Positions 23,801-45,220 of a stretch of 64,000 nt of DNA are shown here, piece by piece. Numbering within the stretch: the stretch's first letter is position 1; every line of letters starts with the position of its first letter. The notes beneath the pieces are model-generated. The model had not been told where the DNA came from, searched no databases, and saw only the letters and a list, made by a program, of their open reading frames with translations. The translations under genes were made by a program, and so were the position numbers. Source of the stretch: a virus. The stretch spans positions 24,519 to 88,518 of IMG/VR virus record IMGVR_UViG_3300042430_000335; one strand, written 5' to 3'.

Positions 23801-25497
23801 AAGCTATTGCCACATCTACATTTGGTAAAACCAAATATAAAGATGGTAAACTTGAATACACAGCAAATAATAACGAGAACACTAAGCTTGTTGAGGATAT
23901 GATGAAGTCCATTATATATGGACAGAAATTTATACAAAGTGAAAGCTTTGATCAACTTCTTGGTAGCCTGAGTGATTTTGGAGAAAGAGCTAATAAGAAA
24001 CTTGGAATTAAGATATTCCCAGAGAACTTATCTGGAAGACAGATTAGTATCAACAAGGTGATTGACCAATTGAATAACACATTCCAACTCAACGCGTTAG
24101 GTCTTAATCCTCTATCTGCTCTTTCAAACCTGTTAGGTGGTAACTTCCAATCTATGATTAATGCTGGAACGTATTTCACCAGACAAGACTATTTATCTAC
24201 AGAACTTTGGATGGCAGGAAATAAAATGACTCGTGGTGAGGATAGGGACAAAATGATTCGTTCAATTGAATACTTCCTTCCTTTTACAGATAGTTATAAT
24301 AGAGAGCTTGCTAAAAAGTTGTCTCTCAGTAAGTTAAGTCAAGAGAACATTCAAGAGTTCATGATGGTGCTTATGAGAAACTCTGACATGTTTGTTCAGT
24401 CTGCTAACTTCTTTACATTCCTTAGAAATACAATTGTAGATGGTGACAGGGTGATTAACGTTAGAGAATATCTCAGAGAACAACCTGAATACAAGGATAT
24501 GTATTCTGGTAGTGCTGAAGAAAGAAAGGATAGAGCTAACAAGTTTGAGAAAGATGTTAAGGAACTATTGGAAACTAAGAGTGTTCTTAAACTTGGAGAA
24601 ATAAAGAATGGAGAACTTGTTATACCTGGAGTAGATAGAAAATCACAATCTGTAATTGAACTTAGAAGAAAGGTACAACAAGTTAGTAAAGATGCTCTTG
24701 GTAACCTTACAGAGGATGATGTAAGAAACATAAACATGAACATATATGGAAAATCTTTTATGTTATTTAAAAACTGGATTCCAAGATTGGTGGATGTACG
24801 TCTTGGTAATCTTAAATACAATTCTGCGTCTGATGCTTATGAATGGGGAAGAATGAGAAATGTTTTCAGGGTGATATCTGAAGACGTGGTTGGATCAATT
24901 AACAACCTAATCAACTCTGTGCAGGCTAATGATAAAGGTGTGGAATTCATGAGAAACCTTTATGAAAAGAAGAGAGAAGAGTATAAAGCTGAAACAGGTA
25001 AGGATTTGGAAATGACTCAGTCTCAGTTTATTGACCTTACTAGAAAGAACATCAAAGGACAAATGGTGGATCTGATGTTCATGTTAACTATATATGCTCT
25101 CTATATTGGACTGAAAGCAAATGCCCCAGACGATGATGAAGATGCAGCGGTTAAGAATCAATACAAGTTTATGCTCAGAGCTGCTGATAAGATTAAGGAC
25201 GAGTTGGCTTATTTCTATGATCCTACTAGTTTAACTAGTCTTGTTTCTTCTGGTATATTCCCATCAATTAGTTATTTGAATAACTTCAAGAAACTCATAA
25301 TGAACTTTAATACTGAAATGTTTGGTATGGCTGTAGGTGATGAGGAACTTGTAGAGAAAACCAAGGTGATTAAATACCTAATGAAATCATTCCCTATAAG
25401 TAACCAAGCTGCTGGTATGCTTCCTATGTTCTATCCAGAGTTGGCTAAAGATCTTGGTATCAGAGCACAGTCACAAGCTAGACCAGTTACCTTATAA
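20830..25497 (+). CDS. Large virion protein with PD-(D/E)XK nuclease domain
   Basis: A 1,555-residue protein that starts on the base after the stop of the giant gene. Residues about 300-450 carry a RecB/Cas4-like nuclease core: Glu368, GTIDF with Asp383, ILDWKF with Asp397 and Lys399, then QMEQY (Gln422, Tyr426), the QxxxY motif of that superfamily. LPEEAMHF at 91-98 is reminiscent of a degenerate metalloprotease helix, but this is weak. A hydrophobic segment near 1412-1435 precedes an acidic stretch (PDDDED). It ends the cargo transcription unit. A nuclease carried in the virion could attack host DNA on entry or process phage DNA; both are inferences. The PD-(D/E)XK assignment rests on a clear ordered motif set. 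Confidence 0.65.
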   Translation: MACINPNDARFQEILGRVENPLLAELEFEQAEKIASSKTVKLAKDFLNRIGVKVENVDDIIVNGVKLNANGIANITQKLVQVVEGKEDIALPEEAMHFAVEIIQQTDPKLFNTLLKEINGYRILQNVIDTYGSDPNYQTKDGKPDILKLKKEAIGKVLAEVISNKAEGLSENATNLAKVQNWWRTILDALKRIFQKSGFDTAAMKVLSGESFGTVEDIRAEEDAIFLQKSTSQEAVYNKLKDIQSKIAKEDDGYYIDGKKVPRRVTDLVKDWYERRFKANDLTKSDYQKAVDDLKAEKGTSGHADVEYAFSVFVDDDGFLRDNPLDDSAYVSQLNPNDRDMYEILRDNLKDRLNSFPKENGGTRFMSEVMVYDAKRGLAGTIDFLAITPDGKMNILDWKFMDLNIDKYEDVPWYKVNAWREQMEQYKLILQNVYGVRSQDFQQTRMIPIKAFYSPGNAKLGVLPQLQSIKIGDVNVKNITDDYLIPVGLEGESTGNKKIDALLEKLNAVYKRISEKKALPSEKLSKAEQLNALFTAIRQLQMKQNLKPLLRQAKILNKEIQKTIDRYKENWAGKDVKDFEQKDISKFYEELETAKNSLIAYITLNTDLKFLFQGELSEEDGALREELREVTELAQELDSNLDDISGEFVNDFVAGSEGVDNYLSPEKVIKGITKWFVSTSSLQLKALETLYKKANRAFGFASMDTIDETKKLAALKESYDKWAQAKGLNNKNYFDILKKKDKNELIDEFQRDFYKELKSKSTDKDFSWVRDNIDGVEYNKFLQEKLAEELERIDNKARVGSEDEVNREISREKAQVQNLYNTSTSESPGWFLYDLTKKFPKRDKWESAEWKELTKPENKAAFDFYNYIKERNEYYQEIGYISKAEARIFLPFVRKGLMEKIIFGGKISLGEQFLRSVSIDEGDVGFGKTDPLTGRLIDTIPTYFTREIEGELSTDLFRNMALYNEMAIKYKYVSDIEAQARALVNTERNKKAIATSTFGKTKYKDGKLEYTANNNENTKLVEDMMKSIIYGQKFIQSESFDQLLGSLSDFGERANKKLGIKIFPENLSGRQISINKVIDQLNNTFQLNALGLNPLSALSNLLGGNFQSMINAGTYFTRQDYLSTELWMAGNKMTRGEDRDKMIRSIEYFLPFTDSYNRELAKKLSLSKLSQENIQEFMMVLMRNSDMFVQSANFFTFLRNTIVDGDRVINVREYLREQPEYKDMYSGSAEERKDRANKFEKDVKELLETKSVLKLGEIKNGELVIPGVDRKSQSVIELRRKVQQVSKDALGNLTEDDVRNINMNIYGKSFMLFKNWIPRLVDVRLGNLKYNSASDAYEWGRMRNVFRVISEDVVGSINNLINSVQANDKGVEFMRNLYEKKREEYKAETGKDLEMTQSQFIDLTRKNIKGQMVDLMFMLTIYALYIGLKANAPDDDEDAAVKNQYKFMLRAADKIKDELAYFYDPTSLTSLVSSGIFPSISYLNNFKKLIMNFNTEMFGMAVGDEELVEKTKVIKYLMKSFPISNQAAGMLPMFYPELAKDLGIRAQSQARPVTL

Positions 25498-38917: not shown

Positions 38918-39141
38918 TGCAAGTAGAAAGAAAACGACACATAGCTAAAACTGTTAGCTACCGCCTCATAAGTACACTCATTGGTGTTCTCACTATGTTT
39001 ATTGTAACAGGATCTATAAAAGCAGGTGCTGCATTTGGTGTGGCTGAGTTGTTATGGAAACCTATACAATACTACATCCACGAACGTATATGGTATAAGT
39101 GGATTAGATATGGTTTAAAAGGACAAAAACAACCTGACTAG
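38914..39141 (+). CDS. DUF2061 small membrane protein
   Basis: A 75-residue protein (ATG at 38914 or 38917) starting in an ATGA overlap. The sequence HIAKTVSYRLISTLIGVL, FIVTGSIKAGAAFGVAELLWKPIQYY and HERIWYKW are hallmarks of DUF2061, with two predicted membrane helices (about 15-32 and 38-58). The function of the family is unknown; I recall it occurring with sulfate-activation genes, which its place here supports. It may help sulfate entry or anchor the PAPS-making enzymes. Its last 38 bases overlap, tail to tail, the gene on the other strand. Confidence 0.75.
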   Translation: MMQVERKRHIAKTVSYRLISTLIGVLTMFIVTGSIKAGAAFGVAELLWKPIQYYIHERIWYKWIRYGLKGQKQPD

Positions 39142-42100
39142 CATCTATCTTCTGGTGGCATTCAAACTGTCTGTCTGTTCCCTTGTGTTCAGGACACCAG
39201 TCCCAATCTCCTGCATCAAATCTTACGTCTTCTCTATTCCAACACCCGTGACAAACATTTTTGTTTGTAATTCTAATACAATCAAACTCGTGGTTATCTT
39301 CAGTGAAATTACTGATCATAACCACTTTTTTATTCATAGCCCAGGCTAACCAACTAAGTCCACTAGATAGTCCTATGAACAGATGACTGTGATGAATGAT
39401 ATTCATAGTGTTCTCTATGGATGCATCTTCTATCTGCTCACAATTGTCAAAAGGATTCTTCTCCTTAGATACATTGATAACATTGTATCCCTTCTCGTGT
39501 AGGAAGTTTATTACAAGCTGCCATCCTTCCTTGGTCCAGAACTTACATCCAGAGGTAGAATTTGTAGCTATTGTAACATATTTACCATATAAATTGTTAC
39601 GAGGAGTGAACGCAATTCTTGGTTTAAGTTCTTGATAATCAAGACCTAAGATGTTAGTGGCTGCCTCTTGGAGGTTTACAGTGTTGCACAAAGCTGGTTC
39701 TTTATCTGGATTGTAGAACCAACCTATGCTATACATACCAAATATACTTTCAGCCCTCTGACCAGGCTCAATAAACTCAAGCTCTGGATAGACATCCTTG
39801 AACAGGAAGTTCTTAAACGTGCTCACTATTACATGGCAGTTGTGTTTCTTCTTAAACTCTAGCACATATGGCATCCAAGCTATTGTGTCTCCTAAGGATT
39901 GACTATCAAATGCTATGTAAACACGTTGGTTTGTATAGTCTAGAGTGTATTCATAATAAGGAACATCATCTTTCCACATCTTAATCGTCCACTTGGTGAA
40001 CCACCTCCTATTTAGCTTAATCCAGTTCTGGACACCTATTGTGTTTCTGTAATGACACACACCTGCTTCATCGTAATATTCCACTCTAAACTTGCTCTTA
40101 GATCTTCCCTTGATTTCAAGGAATGGTTCTAATACAAAGTTGTGATCAATTGTCACATGTTCGCTAGATTGTACAACATTTTGTACAACTTTCTGATAGA
40201 TGGTAAGATGTGTAAGAGCAAATTCAAGCTCCTGGTTCTCAGGAATGTTATAAGTCTTTAGGTTCTTAAGCTGCTCATACACCTGTTCTTTCAGCTTAGA
40301 TGGATCTAAATCAGTAATATATTTCGTAAACATGTCTCCATACTGAGGAAGATTCCTAGCAATGATCGGTAGTCCATGCCCTATGGCTTCTCTAATCACT
40401 AATGGATTGCATTCAAATGTACTGTTGAACAGGAACAAATCAGATCCTGCCATAAACTCATCTACATCATTACGCTCTCCCCATACATGTACATTATCAG
40501 GAAGGTCTTTCATCAGGGGCTCCCAGTAGTGCTGGAAGTTACCAGCTTGGTTACCTACAAAGTGGAAATGTACATCTGGTATTTGTCTAGCTAGTTCTAC
40601 AGCTTCTCCTTGATTCTTGCCAGGTGTCCATAGTCCTACATTGAGCACATGCATTCCCTCTCCAAACATAAATTTAGTGGCCTCCTTCTTCTCTATAGGA
40701 AACTCCACTACATACTTAGGAGAAGGCATGTTTGCAAATGTCTTTAGATGATGTGGTGTACAGAACATGTAGCTGTCTGGGTGGAAGCGCTTCTCAATGT
40801 CTGGCTTGAATATAATGTTGTGACATGTCTCAATCATCCTCCATGTCCTATCTGGAGCATACAAAGCTTCTCTCAGGGATTCTGGCCAATTGTTCCAGCC
40901 ATCTTCCACCATTTCTTCTATATGTACAACATCAATATTATTATTCTTGATGATGTCCATCACCTCCATCTTATCCTCTCCCAGTGTCCAGAAGTGACGC
41001 ACTAACTTTTTTATCTGATCTTTTTGTACAACAAAGTGATCGCTGTGATTGGAATATTCCACAACATAGATTTCTACATTTGTGTGAGCCTGCAAAGCCT
41101 GTATTCTTCTCAAGAGAAAGGCAGGCATCCCACCAGTGGATAGATGTGGTGCTATGAATAGTATTCTTAAGTAATTCTTCTGGCGTTCTAACATCTTATA
41201 CATAGTGGCAGCATCCTTCTCTCCATGATAGAATAACAACTCATTCACTGAGGCTGGTGTAGATACAAAATGACCAATCTGTTTTTTATATCCAGCAAAC
41301 TCTACATTGTTCACTCTATCTAGAGATGCGTTCATGTAGATGTAAGGAAGCCCTTTGAGCCCTTTCTGAGCCCATAAGAGAATGTTAGCTATTGTTTCTT
41401 CGTGGTAGGGAGCATAATATTGTGGATTTTGTAACACTTTAGGATGATTACACATCCACCACCACTCATCCAAGAACTCTATACACCACTGTCCAGCCAC
41501 AAAATAGCCCGTCTGTCTGTATTTATCTCTTATATATTGGTTTACACCAAACAGCTCACATGCTGGATGTTCAAGACTTGTAGACATGTCATCTCTACTT
41601 TCTACACCACCTCTACCATTAATAATCATCCATTCGTATATCCCTTCTGTGAAATATGGATAGTTGTTCTTGGATGGGAAATAGTCAAATATTCTGTCTA
41701 CATACCTGGTAGCTACACTATCAGCATCTACATATGCCACCACCTTAGCATACTTCAGTGCATCTTTAACAATGCATGGACGCTGGATGAGCATATTGTA
41801 AACATCTATGTTAACCCTATCAATATATTTCTGCTGAGGGAGGTCTTTTGTTTTACAATCCCAACGGAAAGTGATAGCTCCATCTATATCTATATCTGAG
41901 TTGAGCATGTATACCATCACTGGGAAACTACTAAATGTCCTGATAGAAGCTACACAGGCTAATACAGTTTCTTTATAACTCTCTGTAGCATAGAGTACAT
42001 AAGCTTTTTCCCATCTTCTGTCCTCATTGACATAGTACCCATACCACTGATTGTCATACAGTTTTATCAATCCTGGATAGCGTTCTAACATTACATCTGG

Positions 42101-42523
42101 TGTAAGGTCTGCTTGGTGATGAGTTTCATACTCGTTCCCATACTCCTCACCATCCTGAGGCATCATATAGGGAACTGCCACAAGAAATCTTTTATCTATT
42201 AGGTTAAAGTGTGTAAGTAGATCTGTAGCTTTCTCTGTGTGAACATGTTCAAGAACATCTCCTAGAATGATAAAGTCATAGGACATTACATCAAATGTTA
42301 GGATGTCTCCAACATAAACATTGTCATATTTAGACCTCAGGTTAAACTGGTCTATATAAGGAGCCCATATTTCTACAGCATCCATTCTATATCCTAAATT
42401 CCTTAGCAAGTCTGAATATGTTCCCTGTCCAGGACCTACATCTAGAATGCGTGTTCCTGTAGGAATATTGTCTATAAACCACTGTTTTATGTCAGATTTG
42501 AAATAAGAATAACTGTTTGGCAT
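39104..42523 (-). CDS. Four-domain protein: methyltransferase, two glycosyltransferases, TibC/Aah-like heptosyltransferase module
   Basis: A 1,139-residue protein from the ATG at 42523; an in-frame TTG at 42586 lies upstream of the promoter and is rejected. Residues 1-190: SAM methyltransferase (ILDVGPGQGTY). Residues about 190-450: GT-A-like, with AYVDADSV as metal motif. Residues about 455-790: GT4-like, with STFECNPLVIREAIGHGLP. Residues about 800-1139: a module that resembles the autotransporter strand-loop-strand O-heptosyltransferases (BAHT; TibC, Aah), including a Cys cluster at 1091, 1094, 1110 and 1122 like their iron-binding finger, followed by the GTDRQFEC ending. BAHT enzymes heptosylate Ser on repetitive adhesins. 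It has its own promoter and lies near the giant repetitive fibre, a plausible substrate. Confidence 0.7.
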   Translation of the reverse strand: MPNSYSYFKSDIKQWFIDNIPTGTRILDVGPGQGTYSDLLRNLGYRMDAVEIWAPYIDQFNLRSKYDNVYVGDILTFDVMSYDFIILGDVLEHVHTEKATDLLTHFNLIDKRFLVAVPYMMPQDGEEYGNEYETHHQADLTPDVMLERYPGLIKLYDNQWYGYYVNEDRRWEKAYVLYATESYKETVLACVASIRTFSSFPVMVYMLNSDIDIDGAITFRWDCKTKDLPQQKYIDRVNIDVYNMLIQRPCIVKDALKYAKVVAYVDADSVATRYVDRIFDYFPSKNNYPYFTEGIYEWMIINGRGGVESRDDMSTSLEHPACELFGVNQYIRDKYRQTGYFVAGQWCIEFLDEWWWMCNHPKVLQNPQYYAPYHEETIANILLWAQKGLKGLPYIYMNASLDRVNNVEFAGYKKQIGHFVSTPASVNELLFYHGEKDAATMYKMLERQKNYLRILFIAPHLSTGGMPAFLLRRIQALQAHTNVEIYVVEYSNHSDHFVVQKDQIKKLVRHFWTLGEDKMEVMDIIKNNNIDVVHIEEMVEDGWNNWPESLREALYAPDRTWRMIETCHNIIFKPDIEKRFHPDSYMFCTPHHLKTFANMPSPKYVVEFPIEKKEATKFMFGEGMHVLNVGLWTPGKNQGEAVELARQIPDVHFHFVGNQAGNFQHYWEPLMKDLPDNVHVWGERNDVDEFMAGSDLFLFNSTFECNPLVIREAIGHGLPIIARNLPQYGDMFTKYITDLDPSKLKEQVYEQLKNLKTYNIPENQELEFALTHLTIYQKVVQNVVQSSEHVTIDHNFVLEPFLEIKGRSKSKFRVEYYDEAGVCHYRNTIGVQNWIKLNRRWFTKWTIKMWKDDVPYYEYTLDYTNQRVYIAFDSQSLGDTIAWMPYVLEFKKKHNCHVIVSTFKNFLFKDVYPELEFIEPGQRAESIFGMYSIGWFYNPDKEPALCNTVNLQEAATNILGLDYQELKPRIAFTPRNNLYGKYVTIATNSTSGCKFWTKEGWQLVINFLHEKGYNVINVSKEKNPFDNCEQIEDASIENTMNIIHHSHLFIGLSSGLSWLAWAMNKKVVMISNFTEDNHEFDCIRITNKNVCHGCWNREDVRFDAGDWDWCPEHKGTDRQFECHQKIDASQVVFVLLNHI

Positions 42524-42531
42524 AAGTGGTT

Positions 42532-42563
42532 CAAAGGTAGAAAAAATATTTGGTAGTTTCAAA
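42532..42563 (-). promoter_or_regulatory. Bacteroidota-type promoter of the heptosyltransferase-like gene
   Basis: On the minus strand: TTTG (42563-42560), exactly 20 bases, then TACCTTTG (42539-42532). The ATG follows 8 bases later, so the leader is only about 5 bases. It interleaves with the divergent plus-strand promoter at 42549-42580. Confidence 0.75.
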
Positions 42564-42580
42564 TTAATTACATAGATTTG
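42549..42580 (+). promoter_or_regulatory. Bacteroidota-type promoter for the leader RNA / lysis cassette
   Basis: TTTG at 42549-42552, exactly 20 bases, then TAGATTTG at 42573-42580. Predicted start about 42584. This is the only good plus-strand promoter before the lysis genes; the first of them begins at 42760. Confidence 0.75.
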
Positions 42581-42583
42581 CTT

Positions 42584-42744
42584 CAATAAGTGTAATGTGC
42601 ACTTTACGCTATATTATGCAAAAAAGCATACAAAAAACATTCCTCTATAGTTGTTAGTAGGAGTGTTTTACTTTTTATAAATTTATCCCTTCACCATAAC
42701 TAAATAGCATTTCCCTATCTACAGGATAGGTATGTGCTATTTTT
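42584..42744 (+). ncRNA. Structured leader or small RNA before the lysis cassette
   Basis: About 160 bases between a promoter and a terminator-like hairpin. Hairpins seen: AAGTG/CACTT (42588-42605), TATGC/GCATA around six A (about 42615-42630), CATTCCT/AGGAGTG (about 42638-42665), then the final hairpin. A 20-codon open frame (ATG 42595 to TAG 42657, starting MCTLRYIMQK) lies inside and could be a leader peptide. It may be a stand-alone small RNA or a leader that attenuates the lysis genes. Stems were found by eye. Confidence 0.45.
42702..42744 (+). terminator. Terminator/attenuator-like hairpin before the lysis genes
   Basis: AAATAGCA (42702-42709) pairs with TGCTATTT (42735-42742) and inside it CCTATC (42714-42719) pairs with GATAGG (42725-42730); five T follow at 42740-42744. 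The 8+6 bp stem is interrupted by an internal loop. It sits 16 bases before the first lysis-cassette start. Confidence 0.5.
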
Positions 42745-42759
42745 ACATTATGTAAGAAC

Positions 42760-43032
42760 ATGAAAGACAATCCTACAGTTGCAGTGATAAAATCTTGGAT
42801 ATTCCCAGGACTTGTATCATTAGTTTCCATCATGATCTGGAACGACGTGAATGAGATCAAAGCTGATGTAAAGGCATTGATGGCTCAGTCAAACATTGAC
42901 AAAACTCGTATAGATAATCTAGAGAGGAATGTATATAAGACAGTTACAAATCACCCTGATGAAAATCCAATGATGATATTGGCTAGATTTGAAGGTGTTC
43001 TTCCAAAAAATAAAGAAATAGATGAAGACTAG
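42760..43032 (+). CDS. Single-span membrane protein with coiled coil (lysis cassette)
   Basis: A 90-residue protein. One hydrophobic helix at about 11-28 (IKSWIFPGLVSLVSIMIW) is followed by a heptad-like stretch (VNEIKADVKALMAQSN...IDNLERNV) and an acidic tail. The layout suits a phage holin accessory or an inner-membrane component of a lysis system. It is first after the structured leader and overlaps the next gene by 11 bases. The family is not recognised, so the lysis role rests on position beside a holin-like protein and the endolysin. Confidence 0.5.
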   Translation: MKDNPTVAVIKSWIFPGLVSLVSIMIWNDVNEIKADVKALMAQSNIDKTRIDNLERNVYKTVTNHPDENPMMILARFEGVLPKNKEIDED

Positions 43033-43630
43033 TTATATTATAAACTCAGTTGTAATTCTATTTGCCATCATCATGCTCTATAGAACAGAATGTGGCAAGC
43101 CTGTTGTTCCAGGTGAGACAATTAAAATCGATGGAAAAAAGTATGAGGTGATCAAACAAGTGATTGATACTCAATACATTAAAGTGAAAGAAACCAAATA
43201 CAAGAAAGGAGAGGACATCTATCATGACACTACTATTTATCTACCTGTGCCTGTGCTTGACTCTGCACAGATTGATTCGATACTCTCGCAATTTTATGCA
43301 AAAAACACGTTCAAAGACACTATGAAGGTGGGTAAGTTTGGACAGATATATATAGATGATACAGTGCAATATAATAAACTTGTAGGTAGAGCTATGTCTG
43401 CAGACTTACAATTTCCTTCTGTAACCAATACAATCACTGTAAAAGAGAAACCTAAAGCACAACTATACCTAGGTGGTAGAGTGGATTATTTACAAGGACA
43501 AGGAATCCAAAGTCCTTCAGTTGGAGTGATGGTTAAAACCAAACGTGATAGGTTATATGGAGCATCTGTAGGAATTGGTAATAACCAAAGGACTGTATAC
43601 GGACTTAATATGTATATAAAATTATTCTAA
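43022..43630 (+). CDS. Membrane-anchored protein of the lysis cassette (spanin-like candidate)
   Basis: A 202-residue protein with an N-terminal hydrophobic helix (about 5-20) followed by a Cys-Gly (ECGKP). The rest is hydrophilic: a Lys-rich strand region (KKYEVIKQVIDTQYIKVKE) and a C-terminal beta-hairpin-like part (LYGASVGIGNN, YGLNMYIKLF). The topology, an inner-membrane anchor with a long periplasmic domain, fits a protein that helps breach the outer membrane at lysis, but no spanin signature is clear. It lies between two small membrane proteins upstream of the endolysin. Alternative: a virion or periplasmic protein unrelated to lysis. Confidence 0.45.
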   Translation: MKTSYIINSVVILFAIIMLYRTECGKPVVPGETIKIDGKKYEVIKQVIDTQYIKVKETKYKKGEDIYHDTTIYLPVPVLDSAQIDSILSQFYAKNTFKDTMKVGKFGQIYIDDTVQYNKLVGRAMSADLQFPSVTNTITVKEKPKAQLYLGGRVDYLQGQGIQSPSVGVMVKTKRDRLYGASVGIGNNQRTVYGLNMYIKLF

Positions 43631-43631
43631 T

Positions 43632-43868
43632 ATGATAAAGAACTTTATTTGGAGCCTATTGGCTGAAGATGGAAAACTTAGCAGCAAGAGATTTGCTGGC
43701 TTAATATCAACACTTTTCCTATGCATCACCCTACTTTGGAATAGCTTCAGCGAAGAACATATTGCGCCTTCAACCATTCTTGTTGAGTGTGTTACAGCTG
43801 TAGCAATTGGTGCTCTTGGTATTTCAGCTGCCCAGACAATCTTCAAAAAACCTGAAGAAAAAGAATGA
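43632..43868 (+). CDS. Holin-like two-helix membrane protein
   Basis: A 78-residue protein with a Lys/Glu-rich N-terminus, a first membrane helix (about 20-36, FAGLISTLFLCITLLW), a short loop and a second helix (about 50-68, ECVTAVAIGALGISAAQ), ending in a charged tail (KKPEEKE). Size, two helices and charged end are typical of holins that form the inner-membrane lesion timing lysis. It is followed by the PAS-domain membrane protein in an ATGA overlap and then by the endolysin. Assigned from topology and position only. Confidence 0.6.
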   Translation: MIKNFIWSLLAEDGKLSSKRFAGLISTLFLCITLLWNSFSEEHIAPSTILVECVTAVAIGALGISAAQTIFKKPEEKE

Positions 43869-44617
43869 AGAATCTCTCAAAGGAAGAGCTCTTAAGTAGG
43901 CTTGAAGCAATCAATCGTTCCAATGCTATCATCTACTTTGACTTGGAAGGGTACATCTTGGGGATGAACTCAATCTTTCTCTTGGCAATGGGATATCAAG
44001 AGGAAGACCATAAGCAACTAATTGGAAAGCATCATAGTATTTTTGTAAGTTATGAGTATTCCAAATCTGATGAGTATAAAAAGTTTTGGGAAACGTTAAG
44101 AAGCGGCAAGTTTTTTGAAGGTGAATTTGAAAGGAAGAAGATGGATGGTGCACCTATATTTTTACAAGCAACCTACAATCCTATCTTTGATGAAAACAAT
44201 GTCATCACAAAGGTGATGAAGATTGCGACTGACATAACAGAAACAATCAATTATAAGAACAAGATTGATGCTCTTTCTAAAGACTTGCAACTTGAGCTGG
44301 ATAAGTCACAACAACTAAAAAACGCAATTGAGATAGAGAAGAACGCTGCTTTGAATGACTTGGATATACTGATGAAGAAGTCACAATCCGAGTTAATCAA
44401 GACAATTGTTGTAGTTGCTTTGGTAGTTATTATGGGTGTTGGTGTTGTAACAACTATTATGTATTGGATGGCTATGGTTACTGGCAGAGATACACAGATA
44501 ATAGGGTCAACCTGGTCAAATATGTTTAGCGTACTATTGACCAACGCATTTTCAATAGTGGGAACAATTATGGGTATCAAATATGCCACTCAAGACGATG
44601 GTAAACAAAAAAAATAA
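43865..44617 (+). CDS. PAS-domain protein with two C-terminal membrane helices, next to endolysin
   Basis: A 250-residue protein. Residues about 12-125 are a PAS domain of the type found in chemoreceptors and BdlA (NAIIYFDLEGYILGMN, then LIGKHHSIFV with His56-His57, and ATYNPIFDENN...VMKIATDIT); such domains often bind haem or flavin. Residues about 128-175 are a coiled coil. Membrane helices follow at about 178-203 and 218-240, then a basic tail. No kinase, cyclase or methyl-accepting output domain is present, so the output is the membrane part itself. It sits 3 bases before the endolysin gene. I infer a sensory holin or holin regulator; a stand-alone signalling role is the alternative. Confidence 0.65.
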   Translation: MKNLSKEELLSRLEAINRSNAIIYFDLEGYILGMNSIFLLAMGYQEEDHKQLIGKHHSIFVSYEYSKSDEYKKFWETLRSGKFFEGEFERKKMDGAPIFLQATYNPIFDENNVITKVMKIATDITETINYKNKIDALSKDLQLELDKSQQLKNAIEIEKNAALNDLDILMKKSQSELIKTIVVVALVVIMGVGVVTTIMYWMAMVTGRDTQIIGSTWSNMFSVLLTNAFSIVGTIMGIKYATQDDGKQKK

Positions 44618-44620
44618 AAT

Positions 44621-45220
44621 ATGAATCTGACAAAACTCAACACAATCATTCCAGCCACTGTAGCAGATCAAATCCCTGCTGTAATTGAGAAGTTTCAAAT
44701 AAATACACCACTTAGGCTGGCTCACTTCTTGGCACAATGTGCTCATGAGAGTGGCAACTTCAAAGCTGTTAGTGAAAACCTTAATTATGGTGCAGCAGGA
44801 CTGCGTTCTATATTTGGGAAATACTTTAAAGACGATGCATCAGCTAAGGCTTCTGAAAGAAAGCCTGAGAAGATAGCTAATAAAGTGTATGCTTCTAGGA
44901 TGGGTAATGGAGATGAAGCTAGTGGAGATGGATTCAAGTTCAGAGGTAGAGGATATATTCAACTGACAGGTAAAGATAATTATTCAGCATTTGATAAAGT
45001 GGTAGATGATAACATCCTCAGTGCTCCTGAGTTGGTGGCTACCAAATACCCATTGTTATCAGCAGCCTGGTTCTGGAACAGTAGAAGTTTAAATGCTTTG
45101 GCTGATAAAGGAGCTACAGTGGCAGATGTTACAGCAATCACTAAGAAAGTGAATGGTGGTACTCACGGTCTTGATGACAGAATAAGTAAGTTTAAAACAT
45201 TCAACGCAGCACTAGCATAA
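44621..45220 (+). CDS. Endolysin, glycoside hydrolase family 19
   Basis: A 199-residue protein. HFLAQCAHESGNF and SENLNYGAAGL give the two expected acidic residues (Glu43 and Glu52) of the GH19 fold, and FRGRGYIQLTGKDNY (about 107-121) is the family signature. GH19 phage enzymes cut peptidoglycan glycan strands although the family was named for chitinases. No signal peptide is present, so export through a holin is needed, in line with the membrane proteins just upstream. It is of ordinary single-domain length without a wall-binding domain, as usual for Gram-negative hosts. Confidence 0.88.
   Translation: MNLTKLNTIIPATVADQIPAVIEKFQINTPLRLAHFLAQCAHESGNFKAVSENLNYGAAGLRSIFGKYFKDDASAKASERKPEKIANKVYASRMGNGDEASGDGFKFRGRGYIQLTGKDNYSAFDKVVDDNILSAPELVATKYPLLSAAWFWNSRSLNALADKGATVADVTAITKKVNGGTHGLDDRISKFKTFNAALA

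Follow-up and report, generated by a model that had tools for sequence, protein, structure and literature searches.

The PAS-hairpin gene, at positions 43865..44617 of the DNA analysed here, is proposed to encode a one-component switch through which a phage lysis module responds to a signal, and we assign this reading as a whole a probability of roughly 0.6. The window, by which we mean the whole 64,000-nucleotide stretch that was analysed, covers positions 24,519 to 88,518 of the IMG/VR record IMGVR_UViG_3300042430_000335, which is an 88.5-kb fragment. In the proposed mechanism a cytoplasmic PAS domain, most likely with FAD, would read the redox or oxygen state of the host cell during infection, and a coiled coil would connect it to a membrane hairpin whose two ends would both face the cytoplasm. 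When the PAS domain changes, a continuous helix would pass this on and alter the assembly of the hairpin, the invariant second membrane helix (TM2) would be the effector surface, and the hairpin would set when the nearby holin and endolysin act, either by triggering them in the manner of a holin or by holding them back. The hairpin of sister phages, which carries another N-terminal domain, would be driven by a phage histidine kinase together with a single-receiver response regulator.

Protein architecture and the predicted ligand of the PAS domain

The features of the lysis region, all on the + strand, are listed below in the order of their coordinates.

42760..43032, +, 90-aa protein with a membrane helix and a coiled coil; opens the same-strand gene run
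43022..43630, +, 202-aa protein with an N-terminal membrane helix, a periplasmic part and a beta-rich C terminus (YIKLF); relatives in the same loci
43632..43868, +, HOL0, 78-aa two-helix holin-like protein; weak match to the holin profile phrog_13404 (E 0.046)
43865..44617, +, PAS-hairpin protein gene, 250 aa; open frame with ATG start, PAS by Pfam and NCBIfam, 259 IMG/VR relatives
43865..43918, +, N-cap helix, residues 1-18, MKNLSKEELLSRLEAINR; from alignments and AF2 (helix 6-18)
43919..44245, +, PAS domain, predicted FAD type, residues 19-127; H57 at 44033-44035, W75 at 44087-44089
44246..44392, +, coiled-coil linker, residues 128-176; within AF2 helix 125-206, aligns with the linker of the two-component effector
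44402..44473, +, membrane helix 1 (TM1), residues 180-203; from hydropathy
44504..44590, +, TM2 with flanks, residues 214-242, GSTWSNMFSVLLTNAFSIVGTIMGIKYAT; 28/29 positions invariant (n=66)
44621..45220, +, GH19-type endolysin, 199 aa; phrog_181 endolysin (E 8.5e-71), Glyco_hydro_19 (E 7e-7)

The PAS-hairpin protein is ordered as a PAS domain, a coiled coil and a two-helix membrane hairpin. Four Pfam models exceed their curated cut-offs for the PAS assignment, and residues 22-126 match PAS_9 (E 1.6e-10, 41.6 bits, cut-off 27) as well as PAS_3 (E 5e-10, 39.9 bits, cut-off 25.6), while the NCBIfam sensory_box model is matched with E 4.8e-12 (46.1 bits, cut-off 22.9). Profile searches of Pfam, PHROGs and NCBIfam found no further domain, and at the C terminus neither Pfam nor NCBIfam found an MCP signalling domain or HAMP, in whose place the membrane hairpin stands. 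The open reading frame and the profiles agree with the earlier note, made from the letters of this DNA, which had described a PAS sensor, a coiled coil, two membrane helices and nothing else. The hydrophobic segments that follow the long helix are located at about residues 180-203 and 214-240, with three lysines in the 15 residues preceding TM1 and four from the end of TM2 onward, and we infer a hairpin topology in which both ends would be cytoplasmic.

The AF2 model was built with 66 relatives and has a mean pLDDT of 62.5, with moderate confidence in the helices and low confidence in the PAS half. It contains the N-cap helix, strands and helices in PAS-like order, and a helix at residues 125-206 that leads without a break from the PAS domain by way of the coiled coil into TM1; a short turn connects this to a helix at residues 211-243. 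Because confidence in the PAS part is low, use of the model was restricted to secondary structure and to a fold search. The alignments also showed that the N-cap helix is similar to the linker that precedes the membrane-proximal PAS domain in phage kinases (...NRMNAINRSNAV).

The comparison with Aer bears on the ligand of the PAS domain. The His56-His57 pair, to which the earlier note had drawn attention, is present and invariant in 66/66 aligned non-redundant sequences. The Aer residues H53 and W70 have H57 and W75 as their counterparts in the alignment, while R90 replaces Aer N85 and A121 replaces Aer R115; H57, W75 and R90 are invariant in the 66 sequences. In Aer both H53 and W70 contact FAD, the former by stacking on the flavin ring and the latter on the adenine (PMC9668731). 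Trp and His were described as the determinants of chemoreceptor FAD-PAS domains, with the F-alpha Trp as the main one and the His common to two of three clusters, and the Asn is conserved in clusters 4 and 14 only, not in cluster 9 (PMC10468136). As the Asn is missing from cluster 9, an arginine at the position of Aer N85 is compatible with FAD. The PAS domains of BdlA and McpS have also been predicted to carry FAD (PMC8694187). The closest solved relative of the window PAS domain is MmoS (PDB 3ewk, profile E 3.8e-11), which also came first in the fold search with the AF2 model, where NifL and Aer were also listed. The H57 and W75 equivalences together with the nearest structures (MmoS, Aer and NifL) lead us to prefer FAD over haem, and FAD is the likeliest ligand predicted for this domain, with redox or oxygen as the likeliest signal. 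The two histidines do not single out haem, which is a less likely ligand and was rejected as the preferred one on these residue equivalences and solved relatives; FAD with a redox signal is the better prediction.

In sequence and fold the domain is like those of E. coli Aer and the AerC/BdlA chemoreceptors, which have a cytoplasmic PAS domain with the FAD-site His and Trp. Aer has the order PAS, linker helix, membrane anchor. Unlike Aer and BdlA, the window protein contains no HAMP or chemoreceptor signalling domain, its conserved part is the hairpin, and its context is phage lysis. The similarity to MmoS, an FAD redox sensor with tandem PAS domains, likewise concerns PAS sequence and fold, and about half of the family has tandem PAS domains; MmoS belongs to a two-component system of bacteria, whereas the window PAS domain is fused to a membrane hairpin.

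The most conserved part of the protein is TM2, in which 28 of the 29 positions are fully invariant in 66 sequences, as compared with mean per-position identities of 0.81 in the PAS domain, 0.79 in the coil and 0.81 in TM1. The TM2 stretch had partly served as a search seed, and the conservation was checked in loci selected by seeds outside it, where the 29-residue sequence was identical in 57/57. Synonymous codons vary throughout the stretch; because they vary freely, selection acts on the protein. To judge from these sequences, a plain anchor would not be expected to show conservation of this kind, while a self-packing helix or one with a highly conserved host partner would.

In IMG/VR there are 259 relatives of the PAS-hairpin protein, and further ones were reached via its C-terminal part. 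Two sub-forms occur, with a single PAS domain (about 250 aa) or with tandem PAS domains (about 370 aa). The number of relatives, the TM2 sequence identical in 57/57 loci and the synonymous codon variation rule out that the open reading frame arose by chance. The searches also bear on the idea that the gene is bacterial chemoreceptor debris or mis-assembled host DNA, which we regard as very improbable. The PAS domain is indeed of the chemoreceptor type, and matching records filed as phage include PAS-chemoreceptor fragments. Against this idea, among 84,980 bacterial and archaeal genomes there was no confirmed match to the whole protein and no match to a degenerate TM2 pattern, the gene is flanked by phage endolysin and virion genes, and it occurs in hundreds of phage contigs. 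The PAS-hairpin gene was absent from the cultured phages of INPHARED, where three matches cover PAS alone; those inspected are PAS-chemoreceptor genes. In two of these records, L082 (MT836939.1) and L083 (OR848229.1), the matching gene encodes a PAS chemoreceptor with an MCP-like signalling part, and both records, although filed as phage, appear to be bacterial.

Association with lysis genes

The PAS-hairpin gene overlaps the end of the HOL0 gene by 4 bp (ATGA), and 3 bp separate its stop codon from the ATG of the GH19 endolysin gene at 44621, in agreement with the 3 bases to the endolysin and the overlap with a holin-like gene that had been claimed. The relatives were reduced to 66 non-redundant loci, and genes were called around each. 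Among the 59 complete loci, which show three genes on either side, an endolysin gene is located at most three genes away in 50, and an endolysin or holin-like gene is present in 56. Membership in a lysis cassette, proposed earlier from the window, is thus borne out in other phages, and the homologues are not found mainly away from lysis genes. The endolysins belong to four unrelated kinds, which are GH19, peptidase M15, GH24 lysozyme and a 264-aa peptidoglycan-binding protein, in which the binding domain alone was recognised. On the tree of the PAS-hairpin protein (57 labelled loci) the neighbouring endolysin switches type about 22 times and side 11 times. As the neighbourhood was kept through many endolysin exchanges, a functional link is favoured over shared ancestry of one arrangement. 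By our own estimate, which assumes that a genome has 100-200 genes and one or two endolysins among them, chance would place roughly 5-10% of loci within four genes of an endolysin, as compared with 57 labelled loci of 66-67.

A phage_holin_4 protein or HOL0 is usually near the PAS-hairpin gene. Relatives of HOL0, present in 48 of the 66 non-redundant loci, are 14-52% identical to the window copy. These two-helix proteins of 72-105 aa, which accompany lysis loci, form a very variable family, and HOL0 probably represents an undescribed holin family. A relationship of the hairpin to HOL0 was considered and rejected (hhalign probability 1.5%). The PAS-hairpin protein itself has both properties of the holin criterion used here, membrane-spanning helices and a gene beside an endolysin. 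In searches with 15 members no PHROGs holin profile matched below E 0.5, the best being phrog_689 with E 0.53 in one member, and Pfam gave no holin family match. A weak match to phrog_1544, considered as a possible known PHROG family of the hairpin, was found for 12 of the 15 members (best 1.3e-3), while the two-component effectors described below had no match to it at 0.01.

Other genes of the region were also inspected. The 202-aa protein at 43022..43630 is a candidate spanin-like partner. Similar proteins near endolysins were noted at L152:5533-6111 (phi14:2 g076) and in loci L051, L025, L064 and L104; like the protein at 43022-43630, they begin with a single membrane helix or a signal peptide, continue with a periplasmic stretch and close with a short beta-rich part whose last residue is aromatic (YIKLF, KKLF, NLF). 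On this pattern they could be spanins held in the outer membrane by beta strands. On the opposite strand to the lysis genes, positions 39104-42586 (-) encode a 1160-aa protein, in which a methyltransferase-like N terminus and several glycosyltransferase-like stretches were recognised by eye. A Shine-Dalgarno motif was found in 0 of the 21 genes checked, and the upstream regions are A-rich, which suggests a host from the Bacteroidota.

Membrane-tethered PAS proteins of a different build are also encoded near lysis genes in cultured phages. The g078 protein of Cellulophaga phage phi14:2 (Crassvirales) has the order TM, coiled coil, PAS, and its gene overlaps a GH19 endolysin gene by 4 bp, while gp249 of Chryseobacterium phage MA9V-2, a distant relative of g078, is encoded two genes past a GH108 gene. 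Genes for TM-coiled coil-PAS proteins in cultured Bacteroidota phages were noted at L152:4357-4986, L154:4019-4627, L155:4019-4627 and L157:4992-5633. Unlike the window protein, g078 and gp249 have the reversed order, a single N-terminal helix and another PAS type, and comparison with the window protein detected no sequence similarity. They are probably an independent invention, and their unrelatedness and reversed order make it seem that membrane-tethered PAS proteins near lysis genes arose more than once.

A second form with a kinase and a receiver

To follow the hairpin independently of the PAS domain, IMG/VR was scanned with the TM2 DNA pattern alone, ignoring the rest of the protein. The scan gave 80 readable proteins, and the 69 complete ones comprised 29 with tandem PAS domains, 11 with a single PAS domain and 29 without PAS. 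The non-PAS form, about 190-225 aa long, consists of a small N-terminal domain of roughly 60 aa with the conserved motifs EGN and R.KRL.VTKQVQ, a long helix and the same hairpin. Its AlphaFold2 model has a pLDDT of 83.7, and a fold search with it gave no significant match. The profiles of the PAS and non-PAS forms align over 120 columns with an hhalign E of 8e-49.

The neighbourhood of the second form was analysed in 46 non-redundant loci. A 145-aa receiver is encoded at most two genes upstream of the hairpin gene in 41/44, and a membrane histidine kinase within three genes of it in 38/39, the hairpin being the third gene of a kinase-receiver-hairpin operon; wherever the three genes adjoin, they share a strand and are spaced by -31 to +22 bp. 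Pfam recognised HATPase_c (E 3e-15 to 1e-14 or better), PAS and Response_reg in the operon, the last scoring 33.7 bits in the receiver (cut-off 30.2). The phage kinases had no Pfam match to the HisKA family; the H-box RHDMHSGINTY and the G2 box are each present in 40/40 and the N-box in 39/40. Exact receiver motifs were found for the acidic pocket, the phospho-Asp (FVDLN) and the Ser/Thr in 43/43 each and for the Lys in 40/43, and the Lys column is conserved to at least 97% in the alignment. The membrane-proximal PAS domain of some kinases is up to 55% identical to the window PAS domain, and is thus closer to it than the bacterial chemoreceptor fragment that was found (40%). The kinase inputs vary by inspection: some kinases have no sensor, and others have a single PAS, two PAS, two PAS preceded by a longer N-terminal region, or a periplasmic region, and the kinase core, receiver and effector stay constant while these inputs exchange freely (L163, L180, L206, L208, L218). 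The two-component effector and the receiver had no match in INPHARED.

An endolysin or HOL0 gene is located within -6 to +8 genes in 28 of the 46 second-form loci, and 18 (about 39%) have no recognised endolysin or HOL0 gene in this range, which shows that the kinase form is less tightly linked to lysis than the PAS form. Several of these 18 adjoin baseplate genes, as read by eye. A conserved 176-aa gene (cluster u1) directly follows the operon in 15/46 loci (among them L283, L289 and L311), often near baseplate-like genes.

The two forms were not found together. Each of 19 long virus contigs (75-304 kb) carries one form and never both: the 11 PAS-form contigs have one hairpin gene and no receiver, and the eight kinase-form contigs have one of each. 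The record to which the window belongs, an 88.5-kb fragment, yielded neither a kinase nor a receiver gene. The unrooted hairpin tree separates the forms by a single branch (SH-aLRT 99), of which the simplest reading would be that one domain exchange switched between a kinase-driven and a PAS-driven effector, in either direction. That two systems with different wiring have the hairpin in common supports the earlier claim that the membrane part is the sole possible output. On this comparison of sequences, the window protein is a one-component version of a predicted phage signalling pathway with the hairpin as output. The early interpretation stood with regard to the lysis neighbourhood, and missed the kinase-receiver-hairpin operons and the tandem-PAS variant. 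A separate output protein, which it had named as speaking against itself, does occur in the kinase-receiver-hairpin relatives, though in a new way.

Proposed role in lysis and its meaning

An action of the PAS-hairpin protein on lysis is inferred from the sequences, and two versions of it, both held tentatively, differ in what the hairpin would do. By analogy with T4 lysis inhibition, it could be an antiholin-type brake that blocks a co-encoded holin, a version that we consider possible rather than probable. It would agree with the usual presence nearby of HOL0 (48/66 loci) or a phage_holin_4 protein, so that the hairpin need not be a holin, and a state-dependent delay of lysis is known in T4 and ICP1 (PMC7182436). 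It fits less well that TM2 is fixed while HOL0 is only 14-52% identical, which is unlike a holin-specific interface, and that the hairpin has no sequence relation to HOL0. In the other version, which we would not expect to hold without further support, the protein is a signal-gated holin whose hairpins associate via TM2 to form lesions, through which the endolysin would escape or the membrane potential would be lost. The two-helix plan with positive charge just past TM2, the polar and small residues on this invariant helix, its invariance as such, which fits self-assembly, and the four endolysin families nearby are consistent with it, as is the N-in/C-in topology that has been reported for LysF1a and other holin-like proteins with two helices (PMC13056207). 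A second holin candidate is, however, usually present, and the conservation of TM2 far exceeds that of the HOL0 holin candidates. As a separate holin candidate is usually nearby, the hairpin may not act on lysis alone, and the presence of other holin candidates favours a regulator. As TM2 is invariant while HOL0 varies widely, a dedicated contact with HOL0 via TM2 is unlikely; the invariance speaks rather for a lesion formed by self-assembly or for a conserved target in the host.

A conserved host target could also be expected if the protein were a membrane-anchored sensor without a role in lysis, one that would alter superinfection exclusion, host respiration or motility and whose position near lysis genes would come from the clustering of late membrane genes. 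Both the lack of such a role and this origin of the position appear doubtful to us. It agrees with this explanation that no recognised lysis gene is in view around 18 of the 46 kinase-form operons, and a conserved membrane complex of the host could be the partner of the invariant TM2, but the lysis linkage of the PAS form is nearly constant through about 22 endolysin changes, and the differently built membrane-tethered PAS proteins of phi14:2 and MA9V-2 are encoded by genes that overlap endolysin genes or are close to them. A one-component switch of the lysis module remains the reading that we prefer.

The hairpin is not covered by Pfam, PHROGs or NCBIfam, and PDB profile searches matched the PAS domain alone. 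In the openly licensed literature, bioRxiv preprints excepted, no report was found that ties a phage PAS domain, kinase or receiver to lysis. The component parts are of known kinds, and the assembled system is not a known one. The T4 lysis inhibition system consists of the RI antiholin and the T holin. The proposed switch would be like lysis inhibition in T4 and ICP1 in that a phage membrane protein would shift lysis timing on a signal; unlike there, the sensor here is a cytoplasmic PAS domain or a kinase-receiver pair, and the proposed likeness is one of function. VqmA of vibriophage VP882 is a phage-encoded quorum receptor (PMC8284805). The window protein would resemble it as a phage-encoded small-molecule sensor of the PAS kind that bears on lysis, whereas VqmA is a DNA-binding transcription factor and the window protein has no DNA-binding domain, its other part being membrane only.

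These data suggest that these phages may sense the state of the cell to help decide the time of lysis. More broadly, we see about an even chance that a widespread group of phages controls lysis via a signalling pathway of their own with a private membrane effector, driven by a kinase and receiver or by a fused redox-sensing PAS domain, and that timing is thereby tied to the energy or oxygen state. Lysis timing is usually described as a clock of holin accumulation, and T4-type lysis inhibition is the best-known case of sensing. If the proposal is true, two small gene sets would allow a direct test of whether phages read metabolic state before lysing. The proposal would further contribute a family of membrane effectors with an invariant transmembrane helix, which the searched profile libraries and structures do not recognise, and it would provide a clear case of one- and two-component versions of one pathway within viruses.
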